Positions 14,342-57,734 of a DNA stretch of 64,000 nucleotides are shown here, one piece after another. The position numbers and the translations under genes are program-made. Numbering within the stretch: the first letter of the stretch is position 1; the number at the start of each line of letters is the position of its first letter. The notes below the pieces were generated by a model. That model saw nothing but the letters and a program-made list of their open reading frames with translations, did no database searches and was not told the DNA's origin. This DNA is from Gracilariopsis chorda (taxonomy: Eukaryota > Rhodophyta > Florideophyceae > Gracilariales > Gracilariaceae): positions 62,001-126,000 of the forward strand of contig NBIV01000037.1 of NCBI GenBank assembly GCA_003194525.1, given 5' to 3'.

Positions 14342-14401
14342 AAAAGCTGCAGGCGTTATTGGGCGCTGTCCAAGCGCAATAGAAGTGATAAAAGTCGTGT
14401 T

Positions 14402-17556: not shown

Positions 17557-17699
17557 GACATGCTGCCGAGGGTGGTTCAGAAAGAGCTTTCTGTGACAAT
17601 GGAAAACAGAAAAATTGAGTTGGTGGCGTGGGAAGAAGGATCTGGAAAGAGCAATGAATGAAGTCATGAAGATGTGCGGCGGCGTATGACACAAGGAGG

Positions 17700-23535: not shown

Positions 23536-25630
23536 GCCCTTTTGTGATTGAGAAAGCATCATGCTTTCTCATCACAGCACATTACGTGCGGCGATGGAGT
23601 TTAGGAAGGAGATTTCTGTATCGCTGCTTGTGCCAATTTTCAAGATGACGATGAGTGTTTAACAAAAGTTGGAACCTCCCTCTAGCCGATATCTTAAGTT
23701 GACTCACCATGTCTTGAATCGGGAGCGCGGCGATTTGGACACTGCTACAAAGTTCTTGAGTTAAGACCATCATAGCTCCTCTCTCTGGAGTACCTACGTA
23801 AAGTTCCATGTGCTGTACCGGTAGTAAGGGTTACTGTTTAGAGGTCATGCGGGAAAAGCCAATGGCCCCGCCGTGGCCACAATGTATACGTTCCCCCAAC
23901 CATGTAGTGCGGAAATTCGGTGCTGAAGCGAATCAGAACATGGCAAACTAAATCAGTAGCAGGATTTGCCTCGACAGACAAAGAAGGGAAGACTAGCTGA
24001 TTGGGTTAATTCGTCTATGTCGAAATGAGGCTTCATTCGCTCGAGTGGTAAACAAGCAAGCATGCAAGAAAACGTGGAAGCAGCAGGCTTGGGAAACATA
24101 TTACACGTCATGTGCGTCTATCGTCGGCAATATTGCACACCTTGGAGATTGTAATGAGGTGCTGCGAGACTTGATGTGAGCGAAAACCCCCCGACAGATC
24201 GCGCCACAGACGAGGAGGGAAGTCGAATGCGAAGTCGGGGGGTTTTTAATCGCTATTTGGAGCGTGCAAAGAGTACCGCATACGCAAGAAGGCAGTGCAT
24301 TGGGAAACGAAACAAGCGCTTTGGTTAGCAAGAAGGTGCAAGTGACAACTGCGGCATGGAAACGCTCGCTCAAGCGATGACACAATTTTACTACAAGAGG
24401 TGGAGCAGATGAAGTGCTTTGTGTGTGTGTGTGTTTATATGAGCTCGTGTCTCTAATTCTAAGACTACGGTCGGGGTTACATTGAGAAGAACCCCTCTCT
24501 CTCTAGATAAACCAACAGCTTTTCTGGCCATGTCCTTACTATTGATTCGGCGTCAGAAGTGTAAGGTGCCAAATACCTAGGAGAAAACGATTGAGGAGGG
24601 TGGGGATGCGCGCGCAAAGATGAAATGCGGAGTAGAGGTCAATGAAGATCCCGAAATGTGTTCGTCATGATTGAGTACAAGCGAATGATGCAGTGCGTGG
24701 GAAGGTGATTATGCAACAAGATTATCGAAAAACATAAGTCTTCACCCCACACGTAGACTATCAAAGCTCCATCCGGTGGTAACGTATCTGGGGAAGAAAT
24801 GTAATTGGCTGCCCGAAGAGAGGAAAGAATGATGTAGTCGAACGCATAACAATGACTACTAATCGTTGTTGGATTGTTGTGGTAGTGGGACAGTGTAGAC
24901 TGCCTAGAAACGAGGGTTTTGACGCCCTAGCGAAGAGTGAGCCTTGGTATACCCATCAAGCAGCAGGTGGAGAGAAGGATCGATTTCCTGGTCGTTGGGC
25001 AAAGACTTTCTTCTTACAATTGCTGAGGCGATAACTGAAGCGCCCGAGCCGTCGTTGGGCAATATGTTTCTCTGGAGAGCTCACACAACTAGTGCACAAA
25101 CGTTCACTGGCCATGTTTCGACCTTGCATCCGATATCCATGTGTCTTCACAACAAGAAATATCTCTACCCGTTCGAATGCAGACTAAACATAGAAAGTAG
25201 TGTTGATCACTTAGTTCTACAATATAGCTATAGAGTGGCATCGCAACGGAGAGAGCTGTCGTCCTTTCGGTAAATGCAGGGCCTTGACGTCCAATCAATA
25301 GTTAGAACATGACCAGACAAAAGTCGCCGGTATAGCTCCTGGAGAGAGGGCTTTTTCCTAGATGAAGTGCAGCTGTCTCGGAATTCGGGACTCGGCTCAT
25401 ATGACATACACTCCCATATATATGTATGATAATCGAATCGAAGTTGGACGTGATGTGAGGGACGAGAAAAGCTATAAAGGATGGTGGGGATGTGGGAGCA
25501 ATGATGGATCGAGGTGACTGGAACAGGTGCCGCGTATATGAAAGTTACCAAATGGCGATCAGTGCAGTTCAATTCCCTTTCACAATGGCGAATACAAAGA
25601 GCAAAGAAATTCTATAACGAGGCACGCACA
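23536..25630. other. Intergenic stretch without a recognised gene
   Basis: About 2.1 kb. ORFs up to about 110 codons show no motif. It contains the strong inverted repeat at 24183-24246 and a short GT tract near 24420. An unrecognised RNA gene is possible but not supported. Confidence 0.5.
24183..24246. repeat. Perfect 13-bp inverted repeat, stem-loop
   Basis: AAAACCCCCCGAC at 24183-24195 is exactly complementary to GTCGGGGGGTTTT at 24234-24246, with 38 bases between. The stem is G/C-rich and one strand ends in a T run. Confidence 0.75.
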
Positions 25631-25951
25631 CTACCCTGCGGACATGTCTTCTTCTTGCACCTGATCATGTTGAACAGCATGTTCGGCTAAAGAACGCCGT
25701 CCAGCCGCCCATGTGACGCGTATAACAGTATCACTAAACTGGGCCTTATCCAAGTTAATCCGCGCATGATCCGCATCATCAATTTCTTCAAAGCTTACAA
25801 AAGCGTATCCCCTATTCTCGCGGCCCGAAACCCTGAGCGGGATGTGTAGGTCCGAGATTTCTCCATACGGGATGAAAAGATTTCTGAGAGCTTCTTCCGT
25901 GGTTTGCGGGGGTAAATGGTGCACGTATAGATGTCTAGAACGTGTTGACAT
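25631..25951 (-). CDS. Single-RRM RNA-binding protein
   Basis: 106 residues from the ATG at 25951. An ATG at 26215 would add 88 mostly basic residues, but the RRM begins immediately after the later ATG. RNP2 is LYVHHLP and RNP1 is RGYAFVSF, with the aromatic positions that stack on RNA. The segment LFIPYGEISDLHIPL is strikingly like the RRM of cyclophilin PPIE (a spliceosome-associated cyclophilin), yet no cyclophilin domain follows; the frame stops about 20 residues after the RRM. It could be a stand-alone nuclear RNA-binding protein, or the cyclophilin part could be on another exon or gene. The start is 451 bases from the divergent QCR6 gene, a possible shared promoter region. Confidence 0.8.
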   Translation of the reverse strand: MSTRSRHLYVHHLPPQTTEEALRNLFIPYGEISDLHIPLRVSGRENRGYAFVSFEEIDDADHARINLDKAQFSDTVIRVTWAAGRRSLAEHAVQHDQVQEEDMSAG

Positions 25952-26402
25952 CTCTAACGGCTGGGATACGACGTGTCTGGCTTTTGGGGACCTTAGGGAG
26001 AGGTAGGTGGCACCGACTGCGGCGTGTGCCAGAGCGCGGCTCCGTTGAAGACGGCGCCTAACAAAAAGACCGATTGACGGCGCGCCTGGAGTGACGACAA
26101 GCCTAGAACCCCACGTTGCACGTAGGCCTCTGTCGACCCGGAGCGAGATAGAGGGAACGGCCCTCAGCGGAGCATAGCGATACAGGGTATGGGAATGCTT
26201 GGCTTCTATGGTCAAGGACGTGGACAGGTATCACACCAACATGTTTTCCAAAACCGGACTTCCTGTGGTTTCCGTCAGTCCCCTGTGATCAGCAATCAGG
26301 ACCGTTGCGCCATCTCTCATTCACGAAGCTGTTCACCGCACGCCGCAGAGAAAGAAAGAAAAGAGGAAGCGATTCGTTCGGTGCGCTTTGGCTGAAACAG
26401 AA

Positions 26403-26786
26403 ATGGATGACGATCCGGTTGACCCTAAGCCCCAGATCGAGGAGAACTGCCGTCCGAAATGCACAAAGGTACGTGAAATGAGCCGCCCACCGAAACATAT
26501 CGGTCCGCTTACATCCATCGCTTAAAGGCTAACTTGGTTGCGGCGTTTATAGCAATGGTCGGAGTATGAGGCGTGCATCGGTAGAGTGGAGAACGATACC
26601 ACTGGAGAAGCGCACTGCACAGGGCAGTTCCTCGATTTTTGGAAGTGCATTGACAAATGTGTAAGTTGGCATCGTCCATCGTTTCTTCGTTCTTCGTTCT
26701 TAGCGGAGGTGGCCTTCTGACCTTTTGGTAAAAATTGCGAGACGTGAATGCAGGCGACGCCCAAGTTATTCGCAACGCTCAAGTAA
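26403..26786 (+). CDS. QCR6: Ubiquinol-cytochrome c reductase hinge subunit (complex III), three exons
   Basis: Exons 26403-26468, 26553-26660 and 26754-26786 join to a 68-residue protein. Introns (84 and 93 bases) begin GTACGTG and GTAAGT, end in TAG and CAG, and fall between codons. The product has the hinge-protein pattern: an acidic start (MDDDPVDPKP), ENCRPKC, then EYEACIGRV, EAHCTGQFLDFWKCIDKC, and an ATPKLFATLK end that matches the ..KLFN.LK tail of animal and fungal homologues. The paired cysteines form the two disulfide-linked helices in the intermembrane space, where the subunit sits beside cytochrome c1. Animal mature forms are about 78 residues, so the size fits. Too short for simple ORF finding. 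The gene diverges from the RRM gene and converges with DCN1. Confidence 0.92.
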
Positions 26787-27255
26787 TGCGTGACGTGGTC
26801 GCAGCCACTTACGGAGACGGATAATAGAAAAAGGGAGAGAGAGATAAGCACATACAAACTAGGCGACTTTCTATTTGATCATGTCTAGTAACTGATATAC
26901 AATCCACCCTCTACCTCGCTCATCCAATATTTGTCTCCGTAAAAGTTGTGCCATCCCACAAATGCGCATCATCACAAGCCAGCTATCCCAAGTCCCCTTT
27001 CTCAACGATGTACTCGTCTCCACATTCGCACACACACATACAAACGCTTTTTGCCAGCCAAACACACCACGATCGCGCTTGGTTCGTACACGCAAAACAA
27101 AAAAAAACGTTAACTGTACAGCTACACACTTTTTGTTGTTGTAAAGCTCACTCGCCCACATCCATCACAGCAAGACGGGGCAGAAGGAAATGAAGAGGAA
27201 CAAGTATCCTTGTACCACTACCAGCGCAATCAGCACAAAAACAAATAAGCGTGCA

Positions 27256-27681
27256 CTACTGCGCGGTCTTTTTCAGCTTAGGTCTGGCGAAATCTACAAA
27301 CTCATCCAATAGAACTGGCCAAGCGCCGTTCTGTTCGTCATAATTACTCATGTCTTCGTTAATGGTGTTGGCAAAGTCGAGCAACAAGGTGTACGTGTCC
27401 TTTGAAATAGGGAGTCGACGGGTGGATAAGAAGCTCATCCACAGGTCGAGATGAATGAATCGACCTTCGAAAATGAGCGGAAACAGTTGGTGGGCCGTTT
27501 CAATGGGCAGACTGCGCTGCTCTGGCGGCTTGCTGTACTCGAACGCGTACATGTAGAAGCTGCGAAAGTCGTTAGGATCGGAAATTGCTGACTTGAGCGC
27601 GGCTATCGTCTCGTTTCTTGGTTAGTGTTTTGCTTTGTGTGTGTGTGTGTGTGTGCGTGCGTGTGTGTGTGTGTGTGTGTA

Positions 27682-27754
<73 letters not shown>

Positions 27755-28287
27755 ATGTGTGGATAGGTGTCGGTGGGTGGATGCTACTTACGAATGATTT
27801 TCTTGAGCTTGTCCCACGAGTCGGCACGCAGATTGACGCAACCGTCGACAAACTCCTTTTTGGAGAATTCAAACGGCACCTTTGCGCGCAGCTTCCATGC
27901 GAAAATAAGCGTAGCAATATCGAGAGTATCTATTTCCAAGCGATCAAACAAAGCTTGAATTCCCTCCGGACCAATCTTTTCCACTGCCCCAAAAGGAAAG
28001 TGAAAAGCAAAGAAAGGAGTCAGCGCCTATTGAGTGCGGAACGAGCCCGTACACAGAGTGGGGAGGGGGAAGGGGGAACATGTGGTGTGAAACTAACCGT
28101 GGGCATCACGAATGACGTTGAACATGTCGTGAATAGCGGCATAGTCGATTGAATCGCGACGATGCGCGGGCTGAAAGCGGGACAGCCGAGTAAGTCCCCT
28201 TCTCATTGAACGCGCGGGTGTGTGTGATGGAGCAGACTTTGAGGATCGTTGTTTCTTTGCGACGCGACCTCGCGACGCGCCGCCCAT
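27256..28287 (-). CDS. DCN1: DCN1-like cullin neddylation co-E3 (potentiating neddylation domain), three exons
   Basis: Exons 28287-28098, 27983-27792 and 27602-27256 (minus strand) give 242 residues. Intron 2 runs from GTAAGT (27791) to ATAG (27603). Choosing that acceptor gives [18 protein letters not shown], which has the same length as the human DCUN1D1 segment. Conserved blocks: [70 protein letters not shown] and [25 protein letters not shown]. These bind cullin WHB and the acetylated N-terminus of the NEDD8 E2, speeding NEDD8 transfer to cullins in the nucleus and cytosol. The N-terminus is short and basic with no UBA domain, as in DCUN1D4/5. The precise start in exon 1 is provisional. 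Confidence 0.92.
27636..27760. repeat. (GT)n microsatellite inside DCN1 intron 2
   Basis: About 125 bases of nearly pure GT with a few GC and AT interruptions. It occupies most of the 189-base intron; on the gene's sense strand it is (CA)n. Confidence 0.93.
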
Positions 28288-29713
<1,426 letters not shown>

Positions 29714-29838
29714 GCGGCCACAACAGCTTATCTTTGATGTTGTCGTTCGTTGGAAAGAGGCGCGCGTATGGTTGGCTGCGAGCGCGCCGCGGGAGGGATG
29801 GTGCGCTTGGAATGGAATGACGGTGGGCGAATGACAGT

Positions 29839-30933
29839 TTATCTGGGAATGACGCTGAGAACACCATCCTCGTAACGCGTGAAGGAGATTCCTTTCGAAC
29901 GAAAATGCTTTTCTAGAGCGGGGCGTAACACCGCCTGTTCTCTATGGCTATGGATTCCCTTGCCGGTAATAACGCGGAAGCGACGGCGTGCGCTATCGAC
30001 GAGTTTCCACTCCACCAACTGAATGGCTTCCTCCTTGGTGAGGCCGTGAAGGTCGATAACGCCGTTGCGATATTCGTCCGAACGGCGAATGAGGTCGAGC
30101 AGTGTTTCGGATAGTCGTTTGACGTTGTGGTCAATCTGTTTGGCGCGTTCACGATGCTCGGTTTTGCGCGTGTGGCTTGCGAGGATGGTGGTATTGGAAA
30201 GTAATGCACGTTGCTCCCAGAGTTTATGGCGCAGGCGAAGCAGTTCAGATGTGGAACTGGGTGTAGCGCCTGTAAGCGAATTACTATTGAGTTCGGCGGC
30301 ATCCTTTTGGCGTAGCGATTCTGCAACGGCCTGCCTGCGGGTTGGGGGCGCGGCTGCGGGCGCGGAGGAGGGGTTGGTATTTGTAGTGGATGTAGGGTTT
30401 GGTTGTTGGCCGGCGCCAAACGCTTGAGGCTGGTCGATGGGGAACATGGCCAAAATGTGCTCTTCGACGAGCTCGAGACAACCGTGGTAGGTGTTGAGTA
30501 AACGTTGGATTTGAGCACGCGGCATCCATTGGTACTTTCCGTGAAGATGGTCTGTTTGATAGCGTCTGGCTATGGTGTTGTTGGTTGCCCACACGCCCTG
30601 CGGGGCGCGCGGTTGCGGTAGGGCTGTTGGGTTTGACGGGGCGGAAGTGGTGTGAGTGGGTTTCGGGGGTGTTGCGAAGGTTATTGCATTGGAGGGCGGA
30701 GGGTGCGGGGTTTGTTTCGGCTGGTGACGCGCTTGGTGGGGGGGGTTGGGTGGGGAGTCGGGCGGGATGAGCATTTCGCATATGGTTTCGTAGGCGCGTT
30801 TGTGGTCGTTGTCGCAAGCTTGCAAAACGTCGTGGACGACTTGCAGGGTTATGTCGGGGTAGTTTGCGACGAGGTCGTTGAGGGCTGTGACGTGGTGGTG
30901 GGGATGGGGATGGGGATGGGGATTGTCGGCCAT
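29839..30933 (-). CDS. CUE-Smr protein, Cue2-like candidate no-go-decay endonuclease
   Basis: 364 residues, single exon. After a His/Pro-rich start, residues about 15-58 (ALNDLVANYPDITLQVVHDVLQ...AYETICEML) form a CUE-type ubiquitin-binding helix bundle. A second weaker CUE-like segment (QWMPRAQIQRLLNTYHGCLELVEEHIL) lies near 140-170. Between them are Pro/Ser/Asn-rich linkers. The C-terminal 80 residues form an Smr domain: GVIDLHGLTKEEAIQLVEWKL with the DxH motif, RFRVITGKGIHSHRE, and a final ISFTRYEDGVLSVIPR strand. CUE domains followed by Smr is the layout of yeast Cue2, which cleaves mRNA at collided ribosomes; animal N4BP2 has a similar end. A role in no-go mRNA decay is therefore likely but inferred. 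Confidence 0.85.
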   Translation of the reverse strand: MADNPHPHPHPHHHVTALNDLVANYPDITLQVVHDVLQACDNDHKRAYETICEMLIPPDSPPNPPHQARHQPKQTPHPPPSNAITFATPPKPTHTTSAPSNPTALPQPRAPQGVWATNNTIARRYQTDHLHGKYQWMPRAQIQRLLNTYHGCLELVEEHILAMFPIDQPQAFGAGQQPNPTSTTNTNPSSAPAAAPPTRRQAVAESLRQKDAAELNSNSLTGATPSSTSELLRLRHKLWEQRALLSNTTILASHTRKTEHRERAKQIDHNVKRLSETLLDLIRRSDEYRNGVIDLHGLTKEEAIQLVEWKLVDSARRRFRVITGKGIHSHREQAVLRPALEKHFRSKGISFTRYEDGVLSVIPR

Positions 30934-31400
30934 AATGGCGGGTTGGGCGGATGCGGCGGGTGGGGGAGCTTTGGGTGTGGACGATGTGCTATTTCATGGA
31001 TGGTTTGGCGGGGAGGAGTTGTTTGGGGCGCGTGCAACATGTAGTGGAGGCTGTGTTTGGGGGGAGGGGTGTTTACGGAGATTGAGGGCGCGAGTTGCGG
31101 TGGAGGTGGGGGGCGGCGGCTGTGCGGGGGATAACGGAGTTGATGCGGGGTGCGGGTAAGGGGTTAAGCCACGACGGTATGTACTACGTAGTAGAGAGTG
31201 TGAAGGAGTTGGTGGTTTATTGGTGTTGCGGTTGGCATACGTGTGAGATGGCGTTACGTCTTTAGGGGGGGGGGGGGTGACATGTGCGAGTGGAAGTTGT
31301 TGAAATATGCATTTCCAGGCGCGATATCTCGCGCGCGGCGAGACAACGGGGATTAGAGAAGATAGTAATGGTACAGGTACAAGGGCGGCGGGAGGGCGCG

Positions 31401-34517: not shown

Positions 34518-35042
34518 TGTAGTAGAATACTACGTCCTTTGGCCAACTGGGGTAGTACTCTACCAGGGGATAGTAGCGGCAGAGTGCCAGCCACTGGGGT
34601 GACAATCCACTCGGTATACCAGTGATGCAGGTACCACCTGGTAGCGAGGCGCCATGGGCGGGCGCTATCTCAATTCCCTACAGGTCGGGAGAATGGTAGC
34701 GATGGCTGGGAGGCCTTCGGCGTCTTACTGGATGCATATGGTGGCAAGAAGATGGGGATGGTGCTTGCCTTTACTCTTCAGAGGTCGGTGGCACTCGAGC
34801 CAACTTAACTAGCTGGCGAGCTGCTCTGACCTCCGGAACTGTCCTAAAACATTAAATAGAACTAGCTAAATGGTAAAATTTATGGCCACAATGCCCTGGC
34901 ACCTGTACTGTCCCCTGATATCCCCCGCACCGGCACCCAGCTTGGCCACGTGGATTATTTGGGCCAGCAATGGTCTGACCTCTGCATTCCCATCCACGTG
35001 GTTACCTCACCACTCCGCCTACCCAGTGGTCATTCTCCTACA
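34518..35042 (-). repeat. 3' LTR of element C
   Basis: 525 bp, plus-strand ends TGTAGTAG and CTCCTACA. Direct repeat of 55305-55825. Confidence 0.94.
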
Positions 35043-35510: not shown

Positions 35511-37224
35511 TTGGCTTCCCTGGGCGCCGTGTCCACTGGGCTGGCTCGTCGATCGCGGGACGCCATGTCCTCGGGGGCGTATAAAGACTCTCATGGTTAC
35601 CTGCTGGACTATGATGGCTTCGAACGAATCCCACGCGTGGCCATCACGGTAGATTCGACCAACATGGCTCTTGTAGGTAGCACTGCTTATGCCCATCCCG
35701 GGGAAAAAGAGGACCACAACTTGCGTCATAGTTCCATGGCCGTGAGGAGTACCCATCTGCCCAGCTCAGTTGCAGAGTTTGTGCGATATGCTGACCAATA
35801 CTTGGACGCCCGTCGGTTCGCTGCCATCCCAAACTATGCTCGTGAGAAGAAAAAGTCCCAAGACGACTCCTGGTACAACCGCTGGTTCCATCTTCCTGCC
35901 GATGGCCGTTCCGTCGCGCGATGCCACACTCTGGTCCCCCCCGACATGCCGTTTGTCCGCTGCGGCGAGAAGGTCGACTACCAATGGAGATTAAACAAGC
36001 TCCTAGAGTACTTATATTCGGTGCATGGCGACCCTAAGGCCCCCTTCCCCCCTCCGGGTCATAACCTCCTCGAGCTGGTATGCTTCAAGCCCCCATACGA
36101 CTGCTTGTACTGGTTTCCAACCGGAACTATTGGAATGATATGATCGAACCAGATGGCCGCTTCCGGACTAACTTGAAGTACTTCTTCTGTTGGCACCAGG
36201 TGGAGTTTCACGATATGCCTCCTTCCCGCAGGTCTCCTTTATACCTTCCCTTACCTTCGCTTAGCGCCGGCCCTTAGGCCGCAATTTGGAACGTTTCGAA
36301 TCTTCTTATGGTTCCCACCCCACTAATTGTGGCTTATCACACCCACTAGCTCCAGGGAGACCTCACCAAGCGTCTCTCGTGGTTGACCTGGCAGGTGCTC
36401 TTCGCCGAATGGGCCGTCTTCTGTCTCATGGCCTTTCTGGATACTGCCCGCTATGGGCTCCAGGCTAACGTCCAAGAGGCCGACTACCGTGTCTGGTATG
36501 AGCAAGGACTCCCTGGTCCTGAATGCCGACTCGTGCCTCTCCAACGGCCCTTAATCCGGCTCTTTTGTGAGGTTGGGGTGCAAAACATCGTCCGGGATAC
36601 GGATTACGGAGTGGAAGAGGCCGAGGCCTTATTGGATTATGTCCTTTAGGTTGACAGGGCGCAGAAACCCGGTTTCCTTTGGTACGATTACGACACTGAC
36701 ATATTTCCTCCGATTCCGTGACGCCCTCTCGGCCATGATGATGGGAATGTATACCAGCCCAAACCATTGTTGGCTGTACCCGGGAACGAACCACGCCAGT
36801 CCACACCACATTACTACCCCCCCAGCCATCGGATTCCACGCGGATTGTCTTCCTCCTCCTGTCCAGGAGCAGGTAGCAGTCCCAGTACCGGCCCCGTCAG
36901 TTGCGCTGCCACTCGTGCTGGCTTGCAATAACGACGCGATAGAGCCCTCAGAGGTATCCACTGGTCCACTTGTTCCGCAACCCTCCGTGTCCTTGACGTT
37001 GTCCGCTTCCTTGGTCACTCCTGCTCCTCCTGCGCCCGTTATACCTCAGGCCATTACTATCACCTTTGACGACTTGAGGAAGTTCTGCGCGTCCGTGGGT
37101 GTTCTTGAACCCGCTGGCACTGTTGAGGCTCTCCGTGCCACCCAATAATGAGCTCGACGGGTCTCGCGGTACCACTGCTTGGTGCAACGCAACAAAGAGG
37201 TTAAAGACGCGTTGGCGACCATTG
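35511..37224 (+). pseudogene. Antisense accessory ORF of element C (5' part), decayed
   Basis: Plus-strand coding sequence, opposite to gag-pol of the element, homologous block by block to the 431-codon ORF of element B at 38691. Open from 35511 to 36143 (210 codons), with SRDAMSSGAYKDSHGYL near the start, then DMPFVRCGEKVDYQ and LLELVCFKPPYDCLYW. It continues after a frame change with FFCWHQVEFHD (about 36187), AEWAVF (about 36408), VGVQNIVR (about 36575) and GFLWYDYDTD (about 36678), with stops between. A later segment includes a helical stretch (NKEVKDALATI) that ends at the element B insertion; the frame resumes at 48102. No known family recognised. It was presumably functional once, since the residues conserved with B form compact motifs. 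Confidence 0.78.
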
Positions 37225-37875
37225 TGGGGAAGTGAAATGCTTTAGCACAAGATGATGACCAGTCGGACGTGCCTCAGCGGTCAGTAGAAGGATTTCCTAG
37301 AAAGACCGGGCGGAAGATGGGCTCGGTGATCCGAACGGTAGAAGTCAGGAGATGCCGGTCGAGGGCTGCGGAACCGGACGGGCAACTGCGTCAGGCGTGA
37401 TCAGGGAGCACGCGTAGCGCGTTGGCGGTGGTGTAATGCTCGTGTTATACCGTGCGGTGTAGTAGTACAAGCTAGTGGGCAGTCTGTATTGCCAACTAGA
37501 ACAAGAAACTAGTCTGATGGGTGGGATGACGTCTGCCTTTACTGGTTCATGGGGGTCGGGGGGTACTGTCATCTTAAGTAGACCCGCTGGCCCCGAGGTG
37601 CACCTCGGCGACGAAGCACCTCAGGAGATATGGGCCAATGGCAGGCCTGCGTACGCACTACCTAAAAATTAATCAAAAATTATTTAGGGTCTTGCAGGCA
37701 CGCCTGCCCTTCCTTCCAGTCGGACACGTGTATCCCGTCCCAACAGTCCCAAGGTGCACCGTGCCGGTCAGGTGCACTCTTGCCATCTGTCCACCGTCCG
37801 GTCTCCCACTTCATTGCGCATCGGTGTTCGCTGTCGCCCGTCATGATCTGACGCCCGTATGGTCGCTCTACCACA
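37225..37875 (-). repeat. 3' LTR of element B
   Basis: 651 bp. The minus strand starts TGTGGTAG and ends CTTCCCCA. The end was set by comparison with the other LTR and by the primer-binding site offset. Confidence 0.92.
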
Positions 37876-37888
37876 TGCCTCTCTCCTT
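37876..37888 (-). other. Polypurine tract of element B
   Basis: The minus strand reads AAGGAGAGAGGCA directly before the 3' LTR, close to the AAGGAGGGAGGTC of element C. Confidence 0.75.
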
Positions 37889-38690
37889 AAAGTGCGCCAC
37901 GTCCGCGTGGTGCTTTCCCGAGCGGTCGGTTGTAGTGTTGCAGCTAGCTAGAGTGTGGGCGGGACCCATTGCCGGGCGTGCGGGACGTGCCCCAGCACTG
38001 ATGTCGCGGCGGATAACCAGCCGACCGGTCGTGGTCATGTCCGTCCGCCCACGTTTTCTTTTTGGTCCGTACGGTGACAGGATGAGGGGATTGGGGGGTG
38101 CTTCCGATTGCAATGAGTTCATAGAGTCCGTTCGGTTAGAAGTGACGGCATTCTTGCTGGCGGTTTTCTTTTCCCTTTTGTTTTGTCTTTTTCGTAAAGG
38201 GGTGGGAGACCAGGTCCCGAGCCGCGGCGTACGTCAATAAATTGACTCCCCGTTGGCCAGTTGAAGTTCAGCCGTCACGGCCTCAGTGCCTCAGTCGCTT
38301 CTCTTCGCCGACTGATCCTCAGCGCACTCCTCTTCCCCTTTCAGTTGGTCTCCGGACGGGCGCATATCATTGCACTGAGGACTCTTCAGCTTCTCTCCTC
38401 TGCGTCGGGCTCTATCTCGTCCGTTCGATCGGTACTTATACTGCAGCCATGGGGCACCCTCCCTCAATTTCACCTCCCTTCGTCTTACCGTTCGGTGCTT
38501 CCTCCCCAGCACTTCCATCCTCTCCGGCGAGTCTCATCGTCATGCCACCTCTGGTCGATCCTTATGCCCGTCCACGCGGCCTAACGTCGGGTCCACCAGC
38601 GGTCTGGCGCACCTTTCCGCTGCCGGGCCAATAACTTGACCACCGCCATCAGCGCATATTCACCCCGCCCGTCAGGAACGAGATCCTTCG

Positions 38691-39986
38691 ATGTCGGTCT
38701 TGGAATATCAGCGGATGTCCGCCAAATATCTTGATTCCGCGCGGTTTTCGCGTATCCCGTCCGTGCGGACGCCCGCCGAACTGAACGTGCGGAACCCCAA
38801 GCGGACTGATGAAGACTCCTGGAGGGCTCTTTGGACGCATTCTCCGTTCCCGCGCGGTTATGCACCCATCCGGACCTTTGGTTGTTGCGATATGCCGTAC
38901 GTGCGGTGCCCCGAGGAGGTCGAGTACCAGTCCCGCTTGCAACGCCTGTTGTGTCGGATGCAGGAAGACCCTTACTATCTCCCGGCCGTTCGGTATAATA
39001 TGATCGAACTAGTCGTGTTCGAGCCTCCCTTCAACCGGCTCTATTGGCCCAACCGAGCCCAGTGGGGCAATGATGCCGTGACTGAAGCCCGAATTCGTTC
39101 GTCCCTCGGGTATTATTACTGTTGGCATAACGTGGAGTTCCACGATTTAGCCGCCAGCGACCGCGCGGGATTTTACTTGCCGATCGGTCAAGGATGGAAG
39201 GGTTACGACGTGACCTGCAATCTTGCGGTTCCGACTCCGCCCGTTCTGGCATATCATACGTCTGAAGTTCTCAATCAGGGGTCTTTTTCCGATCGGGTTT
39301 TCCAGATAGTTTACGCGGAGTGGGCCTTGTTAGCCTTCGTGGCATTCATCCAGGCTGCCATGGACGGGGTGACCTTCTTTACCCGTGATCCGGACGTTCG
39401 GTTCTACACATCTGACGACTACCCAGAATATGTTCGTTTATTCCCGTTGCCGGTGGAGTTGGTGGATATTATCCGTCAGATGGGGGTTCAAAACATCCTT
39501 CGTGGGTCCAAATTCCGGCCAGAAGATGCCGATGCCCTTCTTCGTTATTCCTTGGAGACTGACTGGTCCTGTTCGCCTGGGTTCCTGTGGTACGATTTCG
39601 ATACCGATTCGTTTCCTACGATGCCCGCTCGTGTTAACAGCGTTCCAGTTACTCGTCGGTTGTTGCCGACTGATCGCCGTCCGGTCTGGAAAGAGATGAA
39701 CGTTCCGGATTATTTTCCGGGCGGGTATCTGAGTACCGACTTTGCCGATGCTCCATCGACAGTGGCCCGTAGTTTTCCTCCGGGCGGTCAAGCGGTTGCC
39801 ACTTCCTCGATGCCACCTCCGGTTGTGCCGTTAGCTCCGACTGGGTTCCTTTCTGTTCCTGTCGTCGCGTCCGTTTCTACCGCTTCACCCGTTCGTCAGC
39901 GTATCGAGGCGGGTTCGCAGACTGACCCGCTCGGTATGGAGCCCGAAATCGAGGATGCGTTTTGCTGCCCTCCGCACGGTGTGTGA
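38691..39986 (+). CDS. Antisense accessory ORF of element B (431 aa, unknown family)
   Basis: An intact ORF on the strand opposite to gag-pol, between the integrase and the 3' LTR. The protein is rich in Tyr, Trp, Phe and Pro. Blocks shared with the decayed homologue in element C: DMPYVRCPEEVEYQ, IELVVFEPPFNRLYW, YYYCWHNVEFHD, AEWALL, GVQNILR and PGFLWYDFDTD. The last 120 residues are Pro/Ser/Val-rich and probably unstructured. No signal peptide or clear membrane helix and no nuclease, zinc-finger or protease signature is visible. Upstream, about 810 bases separate it from the LTR, which could supply an antisense promoter. Extra ORFs at this position and orientation are known from plant Tat-lineage retrotransposons, but I recognise no sequence similarity. 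The frame probably continued downstream (next entry). Confidence 0.75.
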   Translation: MSVLEYQRMSAKYLDSARFSRIPSVRTPAELNVRNPKRTDEDSWRALWTHSPFPRGYAPIRTFGCCDMPYVRCPEEVEYQSRLQRLLCRMQEDPYYLPAVRYNMIELVVFEPPFNRLYWPNRAQWGNDAVTEARIRSSLGYYYCWHNVEFHDLAASDRAGFYLPIGQGWKGYDVTCNLAVPTPPVLAYHTSEVLNQGSFSDRVFQIVYAEWALLAFVAFIQAAMDGVTFFTRDPDVRFYTSDDYPEYVRLFPLPVELVDIIRQMGVQNILRGSKFRPEDADALLRYSLETDWSCSPGFLWYDFDTDSFPTMPARVNSVPVTRRLLPTDRRPVWKEMNVPDYFPGGYLSTDFADAPSTVARSFPPGGQAVATSSMPPPVVPLAPTGFLSVPVVASVSTASPVRQRIEAGSQTDPLGMEPEIEDAFCCPPHGV

Positions 39987-40629
39987 GACGTTTGGCAAGC
40001 CTGCTCCGGATTCGCTTCGTGACGCTCTTCTCTCCGCCCGTACGTGGACTCGTCGCGTACACCATAGCGGGCAGATTCTTCGTCCTACGGCAGAGTCCTA
40101 GATGAAACTGATGGAGAGTATCCGTACTCATACCGTTTGGAGTTTGGAGATCTACAGCCATTGCCTCATGGAGGCCGAGGCATTCGATCCAGAGACCGCA
40201 GCGGATGCCTGGGATACATTTGCTGTAGCTATTGCACAGCATCAGCCACCCGGTACACAGGGGGCTCCCCCAGGGGACCCAACAACCATTGATGAGTTGA
40301 CCGTACGGGCTGAGAGTGAGCGTCTCGTTCAGGAGGCCCTTACGGATCTTTTCAATGCTTCTGGTGCCCGTGCGGCCGGGGTTTCCTCCGGTAATCCTAC
40401 TTCGGGAGCTGGGCCGAGCGGTGTCCTTAGTGCTGCTGCTGTTGCGAGTCCGAGCGGTTCCTCTGGTTCACCTGCTGTTCCGGCTGCTGCAGCCGATTGG
40501 GATGAGCTGATGCCGCAGGTTCCTGTGCCCCGTGCGTCCAACGTAGTCGTCGTCCCGGAGCCCGAGACGGTCAATTCGGGATCTAGACTGGATGGTAGCC
40601 TTCCCCTGATCCCACGTCGGTCTCTTTGA
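39950..40629 (+). pseudogene. Probable C-terminal continuation of the element B antisense ORF
   Basis: Just before the stop of the 431-codon ORF, another frame carries on with FGKPAPDSLRDALLSARTW, a TAG at 40099-40101, and then MKLMESIRTHTVW and 175 open codons to 40629, including an acidic helix and Ala/Ser/Gly-rich spacers. A frameshift near 39960 plus the TAG would explain the split of a once longer protein of about 640 residues. Equivalent C-terminal sequence in element C lies on both sides of the B insertion. An independent second ORF starting at 40102 is the alternative. Confidence 0.5.
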
Positions 40630-41059
40630 AGTATTCAAACCCCTAATCGTGGTAGAGTGCGTGGTGGGCGTTCTCGGGGTCTGGTTCGCTAAGTTTGGGT
40701 ACGGTTCTCTCTGCCCGGTGTATGTTGAGTGCACCATTCTCGTTCTTGAGTAAACTTCTGCTTGTTCCGCATCACCTTCTTTATGCCTTCCCGTACGGTC
40801 TGGCTCGGCTGGCCCAGCGAGTGGGTCTTTTAATCTCTCCATCGATAGCGTGTCTCCGACCACGGGGCGTATGACATATGGTGTCGTACAGTGCGTCGAA
40901 GCGACGTACTGAAACAACCAATCGCGGGCGCACCTTGAAGCGACGTGCCGGAACAGCCAATCGCGGGCGCACGGTGGCCACGGTCCGCTTCCCATATCGT
41001 GTTGCGTTCCGCCTCCTGTTCCACCCCCTGTTCCGCATCCTCACCCTCCCCGATGCTCA

Positions 41060-44000
41060 GAGGTTCGCACGTCTTTGTTGCTTCTGGCGACGCCAGTAGC
41101 GGGCGATGAAATGATGGGGAATGTGAGAGGGGGGTTCGAAAGTATCGTAGTCCGGTTGGTATCCGAACCAATGAACTCAATATTGCGTTCTGTTCGACGT
41201 TCCACGATAGCTGACGATTCGGTCGACCGCATGGGGTTGCGGTGTAGATGTTGTCGGGTCCGTTGCGGGCTGTGTAGGTTCGTCGGCGAAAGGACCATCC
41301 GGATCAACATCGGGTTCGGTGGCCAGCCGTGGCATAGCCGTTCTAGTGGTTGGGTCGGTGGTCAGTGCCGTTCGGACTGCTCGGCGTGGCGCCCGGGTTA
41401 CTTCGTCAATGCTTACCAGGTTTTCCAGTCCATCTTCTTTTATGAGGACGGTATCTTCCGTGGCGGTTACGACGGGAAATGGCCCGTATGTTCTCGGGAG
41501 AAGTTTCCGATACTTGCGGTTATATTCGTCAACTTGCTCTTCCAGGGCTGTTGACATCCATTCCAGTCGGTCGACATACACCTCATCCCCGGGAATAAAC
41601 TTAGGGAAGGTCCGTACGGTTTTATCGAAGTCCCTTTTGTACTGGAGTTGGGCCCGAGTGGTTTTCGTCTGGGCGGACGAAAGAGCATCCCGAAGACGGG
41701 CTAAGATGTACCGTTTAACCTGCGCCGTGTGGCGTTTTCAGGTTGATGCTCTGGGATAGTGTTAGGGTTCTTTTCAACCGGCAGACCTGGCGGGTGCTGT
41801 GAGAGTACCAAATCGAAAGACTTTGTGCCCGTTGTCCTGTGCACTTGCATATTGTATGCATAGGTCAACGGTTGCACGTATTTGTGCTATTCGGTTTGGT
41901 GTTCTGCCACATAATGACGGAGGCGTTCGAAGAGCGTTTTGGTAAGCCGTTAGGCCTGTCCATTTGTATGCGGGTGATAGGCCGTGGTGGTCAGGGGCTA
42001 GATAACTAAAATGCTGCACACCGCCTCGAAGAACTTGGAGACAAATTGGCTCCCGTTGTCGGTCACCAAGTATAATGGTATCCCGTACGGACAGACCCAG
42101 TTGTCCAAGAAAGCAGAGGCAACGGCTGTGGCCGTAGTGGATTTCAAAGGCACCGCTCGGCAGAACTTTGTAAACCGGTCGGTAATGACTAGAATGTATT
42201 GGTGCCCCTTTGCAGACTTTTTGAATGGACCAAGGATGTCCATTGCGACAAATCCCAACGGGCCTGCTGCGGGAAATAGCTTCAAGAGCTTATGGTGCCG
42301 CTGGCGACTTTCGCGAGTGGAGGCGCAGGTACGACAATCCCGTACGGTCTGAAATACGTCATTAACCATCCCCGGCCAGTAGTAGTCCCGTCGCAGCGTG
42401 GAATACATCTTTTTTGTGCCGGTGTGTCCAGCAAACCGCGGGTAATGGGACAGATATAATAACCTGGCTTACAGTATCTCCGGCATGTACCATTGGAGAA
42501 CTCCATCTAACGGAGCTTTCCTTATCAATATCCCGTTTCGGTTTACATCGAATAGGCATTTGGCGTCTCCGACTTTCGCCCATGCGGACTTACAGAGGGC
42601 ATCATTGTTCTGTTCCTGGAGGAACTCTTCCACCGTTATCGGGGCGACTTCCTGCAACTCGTCATTAACGTCGAGTACTGCTGGGAGTCCTATCCCGTTC
42701 GGATTGTTTTGTGGCCTGTCCGTTATGACGGTCTCCTCTCCACCGTCCCAGCACACCGTAGCTACGGTATATTCTTCGCCCGTTTCGGTCACGTCGTTCG
42801 TCATCATGCACGGTACCTCTTCTTTGAGCGGGTCTGTGTCTTCTTCATACGTACAGACTCTGGAAAGCGCGTCAGCCACTTGGCGCTTAACGCCCGGTCG
42901 GTGGATTACGTCAAATTTGTACTCCCTGAGGCGGAGCCTCCATCTCGCTAACCATCCAGACGCATCCGCTAGGTTCAGGATCCAGCATAGTGCGTGATGG
43001 TCCGTACGGAGTGTGAACCGTGTGCCCTCCAAGTACGGACGGAGATGAAGGATGGTCCAAACGACGGCCAAACATTCCCGTTCGGTAGTGGAGTAGGCCC
43101 GTTCAGGCTTTGTTAGTGAGCGGCTACAGTAGCCAATCGGACGAAGGTCGCCCTCGGGCTGCTCCTGGAGGAGACAGCATCCGACTTGGGTATTGCAAGC
43201 GTCCGTGTCCATAACGTATCTGTGACCGTTTCGGGGGAGTGTCAGTATAGGTGGTCGTATGAGACGTTGACCTAGTTCGTCGAACGCCTCATACTCCGTA
43301 TCGGTGAGATGTTTGAACGCAAATGGTGGTCTTTTTCCAGTTTCGGATTAAGTGGGCTGGCAATGCGCGCAAATGCCTCAACAAACCGGAGTAACACGTT
43401 GCAAAGGCCGAGGAACGACCGTAGCTCCGTCTGGTTTGTGGGCGGTTTCGCTTGTCGCAGAGCGTCACAAGCTTTTCCAGATACCTGCAGTTTGCCTGGA
43501 CGGATTATATGACCAAGATAGCCGACCGCCTGGTGGAAGAAATAACATTTTTCCAACCGCAGCGTAATTCCGGCAGAATGGAGCAGTTCCAGTGCAGTCT
43601 GTACGTGTTGGAAGTGCTCTTGAACCGATCGGGAATATATAATGACGCCGTCTAGGGAAACTAGAGCGAATTGCCATTTAACTCGCGAAAGGATGATGTC
43701 AAGCGCCCTCTGGATGGTAGCTGGAGCATTCTTGAGACCGGACGGAATTCTAATGTAGCGGAACAAACCCATGTGGGACGTAAAGGTCGTTTGGTCCCGG
43801 TTGGTCTCGTCGACTTTGCATTGGCAATAACCTCTATTGGCGTCTAAAGTAGTGAATACCACTGCATCCCCTAAGGAGTCGATGCACTCATCCATTCTCG
43901 ATATTGGGTAAGTATCCCGTACGGTCATCGCGTTGAGGCGGCGGTATTCAACGCAAAAGCGCAGAGTACCGTCCTTCTTGGGTGCAAATACGACAGGACT

Positions 44001-45139
44001 TGCCCATTCTGCGGACGACGGCTCTATTACGCCCGCGCGGAGTTGCTTTGTTACCTCTTCCCTTTCCAGTTCCCTTCGTTTCTGTCCCGCTCGGTAAGGT
44101 ATCTGGAAGATGGGTTTGGAACCCTCTTCTAAATTTATGCAGTGTTTGGCAATGGAGATGGACCCCAAGTGTCCATCCCACATATCCCAAAACCGTTCCA
44201 GGAAGTCGGTTATTATTTCCTGTACGGTCTCGTACTCTTCTCCTATACGGACTTTCTTTACCCGATCATCAGCTTTGACCTCGTCAGACTCTTCATCCTG
44301 GTCGGTTTCGGTGGGATTAGCCTCCCCCCCTTAGCTTCGTCGTCCCCGTTGAATGGGGACGGGCAAATTAGGCCAACTGGGACGGGCATGGGTTGCTCGA
44401 CGATGGTGTTCCTTGCCAAATGGATGGGAGCTTGTCCAAAGTTGGAGACGAGGACTCAGAATGACCTGTTCGGTATAAGATCCATGACGCCATTGGCCAT
44501 GAGCATAAGGCATTTCTTGACCCTTTTCGGGTTGAGTTGGAGGAATGAAAGTCCTCCAACGTTTGCGGTTACTTGAACTTCCGCTTCGGTCATGGGCGGC
44601 ATACCGACCGCTCAGGCTACTCGAATATTGTTAGAGATGGAGTTGTCCGTTTTCGGAAAAGAATCGTGAACATTATTAGTTTGAAACCGTGCGGTTGCCG
44701 AAAGCAGGGCCACCGGTCGGGAATGGTGGAAAGCAACTTGTTTTCGTTGGGGTTATATGGCCGTCACGTGCTTGTCGATGAACTTTGCTCCCAACAAGCA
44801 CGATGTGGTTAGATTTGTGGAGACTAGGAAATGGTCCCAGACTTCCAGACTACCGATTCGGATAAAGAGGCGGATGACTCCCAAAGTCCGCATACGGTTA
44901 CGAGATGCATCTGTAGTATTTGGATGCGGTCTCGTGAGCAGCTTTGATTGCCATCCGGGCGGGAGAGTGTTCGCTTGGACCAGGTTTGGTCCCGCACCCG
45001 TGTCAAGAACAGCAGTGATAGGGAGTTGCACCTGAGAGTCGAGGCCAATTGAGAAACGTACTTTGTAATGCGCTCTGCTGAACAGTATTACCGGATCGGT
45101 CTCAGATTGTTGTTTTACGCCATTGGTTTCGTCCTCCAA
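41060..45139 (-). pseudogene. pol of element B: protease, RT, RNase H, integrase, chromodomain (broken)
   Basis: Protease 45139-44753 with VLDTGAGPN. RT 44183-43272 with RAGVIEPSSAEWASPVVF and PSGLKNAPATIQRALD, but the catalytic YxDD box reads SLDG, so polymerase activity is lost. RNase H 43212-42469 (MDTDACNTQVGCCL; VADALSRV). Integrase 42408-41998 with FVAMDILGP and LVTDNGSQF; the region of the third catalytic Glu is frameshifted near 41.98 kb. The C-terminal part 41581-41177 has the GPY/F-type motif TYGPFPVV. Then comes a chromodomain, DRIVSYR...RTQY, a TGA at 41177-41179, and VHWFGYQPDYDTFEP. Several other frame breaks occur between domains. Confidence 0.9.
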
Positions 45140-45225
45140 TGGAGCCGGCGGTCCCGAATCGGATTCGTTATGGGGCCGCTCGGTCTCCTTATTGAGGCTT
45201 TCAGGCCTCGGGGGGTGGGTCGCCT

Positions 45226-47405
45226 CTACGCACCCTCCGGGTAGTTTTCTGGAGTGGGTGGTGTGTCGGTGTCCACCAATTGGACTGCATAGCCTTGTGT
45301 TCCCAAGCGGGCTTGGGTCTGCGGTTGACTCTGGCGTATACCGATACTAGCCCGTGTGGGTCCGGTATTACTAGTACTTCCAGAAGGACTTCTTGGGAAG
45401 TTGTAATACCCCTCCTCACGGCGTAGGGTATAGTTAGCCTCTCTTGCAGCTAACAGGGCAGCATGTACTTCCGGTGTTAGCATTTTGCAATTTTCAGGCT
45501 CTCGGGAAAGACATATCTGGCACGATTTGTCCAATAACCGTGCGGATATGGGGACTACACCTCTACTTGGTGCAGCGAATTGGACCGTCCGGAAAGAATG
45601 AGACATGGTGGAGATCGGTGTGGTGGGAGGAGACGGTAGACTACTGCCGCCTCCCATCACAAACACTTTACCACCCGGTGCCTCCGAATCATCCTCATCC
45701 GAGTCAGTCCCCAGGCTCATCATTCGTGAGCGTGAGCCACGACGATGAGTTGGCAGAGAGTCCGTGTGGATTGTTTGCCATTTGGTCGCACGGTGCGTGT
45801 CGCCGTAGGATTCCGCGTATCGGGCTAATGTTTTCAGTACGATGTGCGGAGAAGTTGTCGGATTGTTTCTGACTTTCGACCGTATGGTGGGCACCAGGTT
45901 CTCCACGAAGATGGACTTCAAACGTCGATCTGAGAACACGTTCCCACAGAGAAGTGCTTTATCTCAGAGTTTCTTGGCGAATTCCGTTTCGGACATACCT
46001 GAGGACTGTCGATAAGTCATCACCTCGGCGTATGCGTCCGCGATTACCTCGTCGGTCGCATAAATGGTTAATAAGACGTTTACCACCTCTGAGTACGTGC
46101 GTAACGTTTCCCGATTACGGACGTCAACCGCACTGGTTTCTACCGTGATACGGGATCGCACCAGCGCGTGTGCCGGCCAGGTCAAGTAAAACTGGAAGCA
46201 CCAGAGGGCTGCGCCCTCTGTCATTTCTTTGTGATCGCATGTGGTCTTAAATCGCTGTAAAAAGCCCAGTACGGCAATTGGGTCCGATCCGGAGAACGGG
46301 CGCCCCTTTAGCTGGACATCCAGCTTCTTGTGGTAGCGGCCAACTATCGTGGCCACCCGGGAATCATACCGTGCAGGCTTCTTGAGAAGGCGATATGACC
46401 TGTAGTCTACGGTCTTCCGAAACAAGTCATTAAGTGGCTTCAGCAGCTTAAGCGACCTTATGCCCGAACGGTGATGCCAACCTCGCGAGTCGTCGCTCGC
46501 TACTTTGTCCGAGTCAGAAAGATCTTGTTCGGACTCTGAAGTCTCCGTTCCGTCTGTATCTGAGTCTAGATGGTTAGGTCTGCGTTGGCGAAGGGAAGTT
46601 CTCTTCCTGCCGCGGCTTTTACGATCCGAACCGGACGTTTTATACCGACGGCCGCGTCTGTCACGGTCTCAGCTCCCTCCATCGGAGCTACTATCTTCAG
46701 GATCACCGCTTGGATCTGGCTGACTGGGGATTGCCGGTAGATAGATCGTTCGGGAATTTCCTCTTTGATTCCCGTCTAGAATACCTATACCGGACTCTAG
46801 GGCTGGTCCCGTGCCCGTACGGTTTGTGTCAAACTTTGCGAGGGTCTGAGTGACATGTTGTCCCGCAGATAACGGCTGATTTTTCCGATTTGGCTGGACG
46901 TCCGTGTGGTCGACGCTTGGATGGAGGCGTGACATCACTTCCTCAGTAACCGTGCAGATTTTCTCAGGGGCCTGTCGCTCCAATATTTGGGGCATCCGAT
47001 CGGCAAGATGCTCTTCGACCGCTACTGGGACCCATATTTCGAGTTCCGTGCGGACGAATACCGACAAGTGAGTCCGAATACGGTCCCACAAGTCGTCCAA
47101 GCCAATGTTCCCTATCGGTGTATCGTGTGAAGACGCAGCTGCCCAAGTAGTTGCGGTTGGCAGCCTAGATGCCGGCGGGCCGTGCAGTGTAGAGGAGGAC
47201 GCTGCCGCACTTTCTGTGCGAAGCAATGACTTCGGGTATCCAGTACGGACGGGTTGAGTGCTGGGGCACTCCTGGTGCTTCTGTTTGAGGCCAAAGCGAT
47301 GTCAGAGACCGCCGCCGAAGCTGTCGGAGACTCCGTAACGGGCTGGGCTGTTTTTCTGCCCTGCGAACCTTTCTGAATCCTTGGTTTCGGAATTTTCGAT
47401 TCCAT
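45226..47405 (-). pseudogene. gag of element B (broken)
   Basis: Begins at ATG 47405 (MESKIPKPRIQK), about 20 bases after the primer-binding site. Frames 47405-47112, 47226-46669, 46425-45964 and 45939-45226 together cover the gag. The capsid-like part (FRKTVDYRSYRLLKKPARYD... AVLGFLQRF...) is homologous to that of element C (VLDVKMYRMIDQSTRYTSS). The nucleocapsid-like end has CQICLSREPENC instead of a classical CCHC knuckle. Frame changes occur near 47.2, 46.5 and 45.95 kb. Confidence 0.82.
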
Positions 47406-47424
47406 TTTTGTTCCATGATTCGTC

Positions 47425-47442
47425 TTCTAGGTCGGAAGACCA
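47425..47442 (-). other. Primer-binding site of element B
   Basis: The minus strand reads TGGTCTTCCGACCTAGAA, three bases inside the LTR. It is nearly the same as in the family A elements. Confidence 0.72.
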
Positions 47443-47445
47443 GTT

Positions 47446-48096
47446 TGGGGGAGCGCATTGCTTTAGCACAAGATGCTGACCGGTCGGACGTGCCTCAGCG
47501 GTCAGTAGAAGGATTTTCTAGAAACGCCGGGCGGAAGATGGGCTCGGTGAGCTAAACGGTAGAAGTCAGGAGACGCCGGTCGAGGGCTGCGGAACCGGAC
47601 GGGCAACTGCGTCAGGCGTGGTCAGGGAGCACGCGTAGAGCGTTGGCGGTGGTTTACCGCTCGTGGTATACCGTGCGAAGTAGTAGTACAAGCTAGTGGG
47701 CGGTCTTTACTGCCAACTAGAACAAGAAACTAGTCAGTTTGGTGGGATGACGTCTGCCTTTACTGGTTCATGGGGGTCGGGGGGTACTGTCATCCTAAGT
47801 AGACCCGCAGGCCCCGAGGTGCACCTCGGCGACGAAGCACCTCAGGAGATATGGGCCAATGGCAGGCCTGCGTACGCACTACCTAAAAATTAATCAAAAA
47901 TTATTTAGGGTCTTGCAGGCACGCCTGCCCTTCCTTCCAGTCGGACACGTGTATCCCGTCCCAACAGTCCCAAGGTGCACCGTGCTGGTCAGGTGCACTC
48001 TTGCCATCTGTCCACCGTCCGTTCTCCCACGTCATCGCGCATCGGTGTTCGCTGTGGCCCATCATGACCTGCCGCCCGTAAGGTCGCTCTACTACA
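47446..48096 (-). repeat. 5' LTR of element B
   Basis: 651 bp, direct repeat of 37225-37875. The minus strand starts TGTAGTAG and ends GCTCCCCCA. Confidence 0.92.
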
Positions 48097-48279
48097 ATCA
48101 TCCTGGAGGACAATGCGAAGGTGTTGTCAGAGCGCGCCACGACGCACCTGGGCAACCGTCTCTGCTTAAAACTTTCGGACACGGAGTCCTCTGGTGGAGC
48201 CTTGTCCCAATCAGCCCAGAGTCCAGCTCGTAAGCGCACCCACACGGGGTCCCCTTCTCAGCTGGCTGCAAATTCCTAG
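48097..48279 (+). pseudogene. Antisense accessory ORF of element C, 3' end
   Basis: Immediately after element B the plus strand is open for 60 codons (ILEDNAKVLSERATTHLGN ... SPARKRTHTGSPSQ) and stops at TAG 48277-48279. When one 5-bp flank of element B is dropped, the left part (ending DALATI) continues in frame into LEDNAK. This is the C-terminus of the element C antisense protein, with a basic segment. It ends about 500 bases before the convergent pol end. Confidence 0.72.
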
Positions 48280-55825: not shown

Positions 55826-55830
55826 CGGGC

Positions 55831-57696: not shown

Positions 57697-57734
57697 CTGG
57701 GGGAGTCCCCCCTTTGGGAGAGGCGTCCGCAAAG

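Follow-up and report, generated by a model that had tools for sequence, protein, structure and literature searches.

Two nested, broken retrotransposons in a stretch of 64,000 nucleotides from the red alga Gracilariopsis chorda (contig NBIV01000037.1, positions 62,001 to 126,000; hereafter the window) raise the question of what use a chromodomain-type Ty3/gypsy element has for a protein gene placed between integrase and the 3' long terminal repeat (LTR), on the strand opposite to gag-pol. We traced this antisense gene through the genome, and we observed its position and strand, selection at the protein level, co-inheritance with pol, and loss in copies that were later amplified. Its product may be a trans-acting nuclear regulator, a role proposed here by analogy with antisense genes of plant elements.

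An antisense gene in two nested elements

Both elements are of the chromodomain type and are bounded by LTR pairs on the minus strand. Element B (37217-48096) has its 3' LTR at 37217-37875 and its 5' LTR at 47438-48096 (a 659-bp direct repeat, 93.8% identical), and its broken pol, with reverse transcriptase (RT), RNase H and integrase, runs from 44072 to 41069 on the minus strand, as found by tblastn with the pol of element L009 and by Pfam RVT_1 and RT_RNaseH. Element C (34518-55825), which element B interrupts, has LTRs at 34518-35042 (3') and 55305-55825 (5'; a 525-bp repeat, 85.3% identical). Its broken pol, at 51878-48801 on the minus strand by tblastn, includes an integrase and a chromodomain-like end, with Pfam Integrase_H2C2 above the cut-off and rve and Chromo below it. 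Since both pols are on the minus strand, genes on the plus strand here are antisense and lie between integrase and the 3' LTR; together with the LTR pairs, this confirms the arrangement proposed by an earlier, sequence-only reading of the window.

The gene of element B occupies about 38449-40647 on the plus strand and is broken into three frames, matched by tblastn to the proteins of L017 (38449-38667), of L009 and L017 (38661-39962) and of L009 (39901-40647). Within it lie the two plus-strand open reading frames (ORFs) on which that reading was based, 38691-39986 (431 aa) and 40102-40629 (175 aa); the probability of a random open frame of 431 codons at this GC (guanine plus cytosine) content is about 6e-8. 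The gene of element C, of the L019 family and also broken, has its N-terminal and core part at 35565-37216 on the plus strand (end approximate), where the L019 protein is 75-76% identical over 35565-36820 and 54% beyond. Its C-terminal remainder is found on the far side of element B, at 48100-48276 on the plus strand (L019 residues 553-610 at 64%, L026 residues 440-498 at 61%). Because the gene of C is in pieces and resumes past B, we conclude that B inserted inside the antisense gene of C; target-site duplications flanking B were looked for and not demonstrated. The protein blocks said to be shared were located in both elements, namely DMPYVRC at 38889, YCWHNVEF at 39117 and GFLWYD at 39579 in B, and DMPFVRC at 35943, FCWHQVEF at 36185 and GFLWYD at 36671 in C. 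The B protein matched the C DNA by tblastn at E about 6e-54, so the similarity is not due to chance. The window copies of the gene, in B and C alike, are broken.

The gene family, its inheritance and its loss

The gene is not limited to the two window elements, and many copies in several families were found in the genome. Each antisense-gene query gave 82-100 listed matches, several of which may be pieces of one copy. There were at least 100 for the window ORF (97 of 1006 candidates scored), at least 97 for a 738-aa type, and at least 94 and at least 82 for the queries from a second, deeply separated clade. Ten copies of the 738-aa type are full-length at 99-100% identity, nine of them without stops. 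The two clades are 20-31% identical over the aligned part (E 2e-12 to 8e-4 against 21 clade-1 proteins). In clade 1, three families have open frames of 738, 774 and 847 codons, and in clade 2 the open frame has 609 codons; such frames would arise by chance at this GC content with a probability of about 4e-11 for 774 codons and 3e-9 for 609. The 609-aa type accounts for 58 rows among the matches listed, 55 of them without a stop, a count biased to intact copies because the best-scoring candidates alone were scored. One stretch, C30:292265-293737, corresponds to residues 1-491 of the predicted protein BWQ96_03215 of Gracilariopsis chorda, a florideophyte, at 100% identity.

The orientation seen in the window recurs across the genome. 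For clade 1, we set 124 antisense-match rows (100 from the window ORF and 24 of the 97 of the 738-aa type) against 89 of 127 integrase rows, the remaining 38, all short C-terminal pieces, being left out. An antisense-gene match lay within 6 kb downstream of integrase at 48 of the 89 loci, on the opposite strand in 48 of 48. Another 16 loci carried a known deletion junction and 25 showed neither, the last figure being an upper bound for absence because the match rows are the best-scoring ones listed. A single match lay upstream of integrase on the same strand (C145). In clade 2, the genes of L036 and L037 are antisense to pol as well. Pfam Chromo (PF00385) was matched above the curated cut-off at the end of pol in L009 (E 5e-9), L014 (1e-9) and L012 (2e-9) of clade 1 and in L036 of clade 2 (E 4.5e-9), while the L021 pol scored just under it (24.6 vs 25.1). 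By this domain, C-terminal to integrase, elements of both clades classify as chromoviruses, a class assigned here by the chromodomain.

For 21 elements we built one tree from the integrase part and one from the antisense protein; the two had 11 of 18 splits in common, and distances in the gene and pol trees were strongly correlated (Mantel r 0.92, reached by none of 5000 permutations). The set leaves out L016, which had a weak pol match, and for some broken integrases the pieces were joined into one reading. The trees disagreed at the 847-codon family, at L015, on the long clade-2 branch (pol supports 57, 75 and 99) and at young tips. Because gene and pol distances agree, elements B and C have an inherited gene in common and not the results of separate captures. 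The earlier description of two independent elements is to be reworded accordingly. To judge from these comparisons, the antisense gene is inherited largely with pol over a long time.

Selection on the antisense frame was estimated on a core of about 340 codons, with bootstrap ranges. In the best pair, L014 and L018, dS (synonymous divergence) was 0.525 and dN (nonsynonymous divergence) 0.051, giving a dN/dS ratio (omega) of 0.10 (0.06-0.15). For the window B copy and L009, synonymous differences were saturated (pS 0.77, pN 0.20), with a ratio of 0.27 (0.22-0.31), and the clade-2 pair L036 and L037 gave pS 0.64, pN 0.29 and omega 0.26. The antisense core of L009 and L010 had an omega of 0.26 and their pol 0.45; other pol values were 0.16 for L014 and L018, and 0.06 (RT) and 0.14 (RNase H part) for L009 and B. 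Values between families of 0.10-0.26, far below 1, uphold the suggestion of past selection on the protein, and by these ratios the gene is old and kept by purifying selection between families.

The absence of the ORF from other copies, which the earlier reading gave as a point that would refute it, is partly borne out: in one young family, most of the gene is missing from many copies. In the 738 family, L031 and L034 have one common deletion of most of the gene, with 9-bp matching ends, and L030 has a different deletion whose ends also match over 9 bp. Genome-wide there are 18 occurrences of the first junction, 17 of them identical, and one of the second. Among the 28 integrase rows of the 738 type, 7 are followed by a full-length gene (one with a stop), 2 by a frameshifted gene (C67 and C124), 16 by the first deletion and 1 by the second, and 2 have neither. 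A mosaic gene in C67 and C124 was considered and rejected, as these are frameshifts in copies 98.6-98.8% identical to L014 in DNA. No stop was found in the matched integrase part of any of the 28 rows. The deletion copies have thus multiplied with pol open, and the gene was therefore not needed in cis for recent spread. These amplified derivatives are compatible with supply in trans or with dispensability, and they suggest a product that can be shared between copies.

Family-specific palindromes

Gapped palindromes of the form CC-N(3-8)-GG are over-represented across the gypsy elements, in family-specific versions that are dispersed along them. CCGNNCGG occurs 77 times in L012, 56 in B, 41 in L009 and 33 in L017, where about 10, 8, 6 and 6, respectively, would be expected. 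CCANTGG and CCTNNAGG characterize L014 and L018, with CCTNNAGG also in L015; CCGNNNNCGG is found in L020 and L021, ACCNNNNGGT in L039 and L040, and CCC/CCG with spacers of 4-7 in L036, L037 and element D. In 15 of 16 element stretches the best pattern was commoner than in any of 60 third-order Markov simulations, the exception being L019; this set leaves out element C, and its stretches are not independent because several belong to one family. A 20-kb part of the window with no gypsy pol (11000-31000) had no best pattern above its simulations. Counted by spacer length, CC-N(g)-GG peaks at g = 3-4 in L014, L018, L019 and both parts of C, at 4-5 in L009, B, L012, L015, L039 and L040, at 6 in L020 and L021, and at 8 in L036, L037, L038 and D. 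No sharp peak was seen in element A, and the control counts vary little with g.

The palindromes are not confined to non-coding DNA, a possibility that we rejected since coding parts carry them. In L012 and L009, CCGNNCGG is spread over pol, the antisense ORF and LTR-side DNA, in all three frames; none is present in the short pol-to-ORF spacer of L009. A synonymous-codon shuffle that keeps protein and codon usage, with 300 shuffles per element, left an excess in 6 of the 7 elements tested. Seen against shuffled, coding counts were 46 vs 10.6 (L012) and 32 vs 6.9 (L009) for CCGNNCGG, 17 vs 4.4 for CCANTGG in L014, 25 vs 5.4 for CCC-N5-GGG in L036, and 15 vs 3.6 in L021 and 17 vs 3.5 in L037. 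L015 did not pass (z 4.4, null maximum 4.7). We made no use of conservation of motif positions between families, as the control CCG-N3-CGG was conserved too (5 of 7 shared between the L009 and B pols).

The protein, its possible roles and the rest of the window

Pro makes up 7-12% of the protein in 7 members. A conserved core of about 340 aa is flanked by Pro-rich parts and, in several families, followed by a basic tail resembling a nuclear localization signal (NLS) or a tail rich in arginine and glycine (RG), with RKRQR in L014, KRAR in L019 and RG-rich ends in L009 and L012. The earlier statement that it matches no recognised family is supported in the libraries searched: Pfam gave no match for the members scanned, save a sub-threshold DUF6220 for L036 (E 0.098), and NCBIfam and PHROGs gave none for 4 members. 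PDB sequences had no match for L009 and none for the A5 profile; PAK2 and RBBP9, reached with the A2 profile (E 0.48-0.76), were taken as chance. The A2 patterns had no relative in viral contig or genome contig collections. In a word-based search of 5.8 billion proteins, the relatives among the best-scoring candidates listed were all red-algal or metagenomic. For clade 1 these were P0001 (98% to L009), P0002 and P0003, which share a single metagenomic source type; for clade 2 they were P0004 (Gracilariopsis chorda), P0005 (of that source type too) and P0006 (Gracilaria domingensis, 48% over 73%).

Among plant LTR elements, those of the Grande and Retand type are known to have antisense accessory genes. 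In strand, place between pol and the 3' LTR, and protein conservation across copies and families, the algal gene fits the plant class of additional ORFs (aORFs) designated aORF-3R. The aORF-3R genes of maize Grande (gene23), rice RIRE2, Silene Retand and PvRetro13 have the same place and orientation and are conserved across copies; they likewise lack clear homologues, and some products are nuclear, among them that of Grande, whose gene is transcribed from its own promoter (PMC7264820; papers are given here by their PubMed Central (PMC) numbers). Unlike these, the algal elements have an integrase chromodomain and a red-algal host. The Retand domain TRP28/Transposase_28 (PF04195) is likewise antisense between pol and the 3' LTR and is present in almost every recent element of that lineage, in which defective recently active copies occur, as in the algal 738 family; however, Retand is a non-chromovirus lineage with TRP28 mostly carried (PMC11963269), whereas the algal pol ends in Chromo. 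Sequence comparison with plant aORFs covered the Retand TRP28 domain only: PF04195 had no match in the genome at E <= 1 and none in 13 members, and we therefore rejected TRP28 membership. That chromodomain elements of a distant lineage have, at this same position, a protein for which no relation to TRP28 was detected suggests convergence on one layout. The sunflower chromovirus Tekay has an extra conserved aORF, mostly disordered and Pro-rich with a C-terminal helix and a nuclear prediction, which is absent from some Tekay groups and lies 5' of gag-pol (PMC11728184), whereas the algal gene is 3' and antisense. Given this example, the earlier claim that chromodomain elements have no such protein was too strong; what stands is that our searches of the open-licence PMC literature yielded no description of a 3' antisense gene for these elements, nor of such palindromes.

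Element-encoded regulators include HBZ, a nuclear regulator encoded by an antisense gene near the 3' LTR of human T-cell leukemia virus (HTLV), which serves as an analogy only, being from a different element type and host, and the anti-silencing protein VANC of the VANDALs, which are DNA transposons. An antisense promoter in the HTLV 3' LTR is mentioned in PMC7264820. VANC is proposed to act on its own family and has short family-specific motifs (PMC5735166, PMC10398659). Its targets are non-coding tandem repeats, whereas the algal motifs are dispersed over pol, antisense ORF and LTR-side DNA. For algal transposons, a paper on Ectocarpus transposable elements mentions DNA-methyltransferase accessory proteins (PMC12477816).

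The reading that we favour, at a probability of about 0.45, is that an antisense transcript of the gene gives rise to a nuclear regulator that acts in trans, analogous to the products of the plant antisense aORFs, with no homology detected. The transcript would be the gene's own and would start in or just inside the 3' LTR; the product would serve every copy of its family in trans, most likely in the nucleus and on the element's transcription or silencing state, and deletion derivatives would free-ride on the product of full copies. It may work like maize Grande gene23, HTLV HBZ or Arabidopsis VANC, and no descent is claimed. Strand and place, the chromodomain pol in both clades, selection, co-inheritance and the open frames of young families count in its favour; the deletion junction common to 16 of 28 integrase copies would fit action in trans, and the NLS-like and RG-rich tails, with the nuclear product of Grande as a parallel, would fit a nuclear role. 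The antisense ATG of L014 is 332 bp from the 3' LTR, and a TATATAA-type box that can be read on either strand is present in the LTR of the 738 family; of 5 stretches scanned, 2 had a TATA-like box, which we count as weak evidence.

Several observations weigh against a nuclear regulator. The scanned stretches of the 774 family, of B and of the 609 family had no TATA-like box, the NLS-like tails were judged by eye, L015 has neither an NLS-like nor an RG-rich tail, and net charge in 7 members ranges from 0 to -17. No fold backs nucleic-acid binding, because the two AlphaFold models are of low quality (mean pLDDT, the model confidence score, 35 and 31). That 16 of the 28 pol copies in the 738 family have the deletion argues against an essential role in cis, and their amplification could mean that the gene may simply be dispensable for now. 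L039 and L040, which share 95% identity and belong to a gypsy family whose pol has a chromodomain, are two of the 25 loci with neither gene nor junction; no gene was seen in about 3 kb downstream of the chromodomain in either. Finally, omega is 0.58-3.83 among near-identical copies of the 847 family and 1.08 for L020 and L021, both at dS <0.025 with few changes, 0.47 for B and L017, and 0.33-0.63 at dS 0.1-0.2 in the middle-aged pairs of the L019-L022-L016-L026 group; we read these high values in young and middle-aged pairs as drift after insertion.

Other roles would also account for parts of this evidence. An extra structural or packaging protein of the particle, such as a nucleocapsid helper or a factor for nuclear import of the pre-integration complex, is unlikely, although the gag piece of the 738 family (L035) lacks a CCHC knuckle by the pattern used, several antisense proteins have the basic or RG-rich tails described above, and the gene has largely followed pol. 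A particle protein is normally made from the genomic strand, and most of the gene is missing at one common junction from the 16 amplified copies, which supply in trans could permit. An env-like or cell-to-cell transport protein would suit the place between pol and the 3' LTR, the usual env position; we disfavour it as highly improbable, given an antisense and not sense orientation at all 48 loci, the lack of any Pfam match, and a simple hydropathy scan of 7 members that revealed no transmembrane-like stretch (highest 19-residue value 0.96-1.71). Retrotransposon antisense RNAs may themselves regulate (PMC7264820), and selection might act on the antisense transcript or promoter with the protein incidental; changes between families fall preferentially at synonymous positions of the antisense frame, and protein motifs are kept at 20-40% identity, leaving this very little probability. 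Nor do we expect a captured host gene carried neutrally, which we rate as scarcely probable: retroelement gene capture is a known phenomenon, but the protein has no Pfam homologue, its listed relatives are red-algal or metagenomic, and neutral carriage is at odds with the omega values and long co-inheritance. An old capture followed by selection would be compatible with the analysis.

A more specific reading would make the antisense protein the red-algal counterpart of VANC, a DNA-binding factor that recognises its own elements. Each family would mark its own coding and non-coding DNA by a palindrome tuned through synonymous codons, and a dimeric antisense protein would read it in trans, protein and spacing having co-diversified. 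The excess of palindromes over simulations and over codon shuffles, its absence from the 20-kb control, and a spacing that follows the element clades are all in its favour. We nevertheless consider it rather unlikely, and the link between protein and palindrome is unproven. VANC21 motifs are mainly non-coding and at high density (PMC5735166), whereas the algal ones are in coding and non-coding parts; no DNA-binding domain was recognised in the protein; and L039 and L040, with no antisense gene seen, have ACCNNNNGGT at z 6.8 and 8.6, so the reader may be another protein of element or host. If the palindromes are a signature of self-recognition, they would be a second testable mark of how a transposable element recognises itself. 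The role of the gene as a trans-acting regulator is itself testable, as young open copies, near-identical copies without the gene and deep protein diversity are present in the same genome.

The window has two further gypsy pols, located by tblastn, in element A (6-2406, minus strand) and in element D (55305-64000; pol at 59022-63203, plus strand). Any antisense gene downstream of either would be mostly or entirely beyond the ends of the window. Gag pieces in L035 (near 5060) and in element C of the window have a C-x2-C-x6-C-x-C motif (CYLCLSTARPCDC; CYICLFTDLACDC). In the genome, one phycobilisome-family match, above the curated cut-off (E 1e-4), is in keeping with a red alga. A weak match to the DDE_1 endonuclease at 19236-20225 on the minus strand, below the cut-off, is a possible DNA transposon remnant. 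Between the elements, at 28709-29713 on the plus strand, lies a WDR5-type WD40 gene in a single frame (334 aa), which is likely a host gene.

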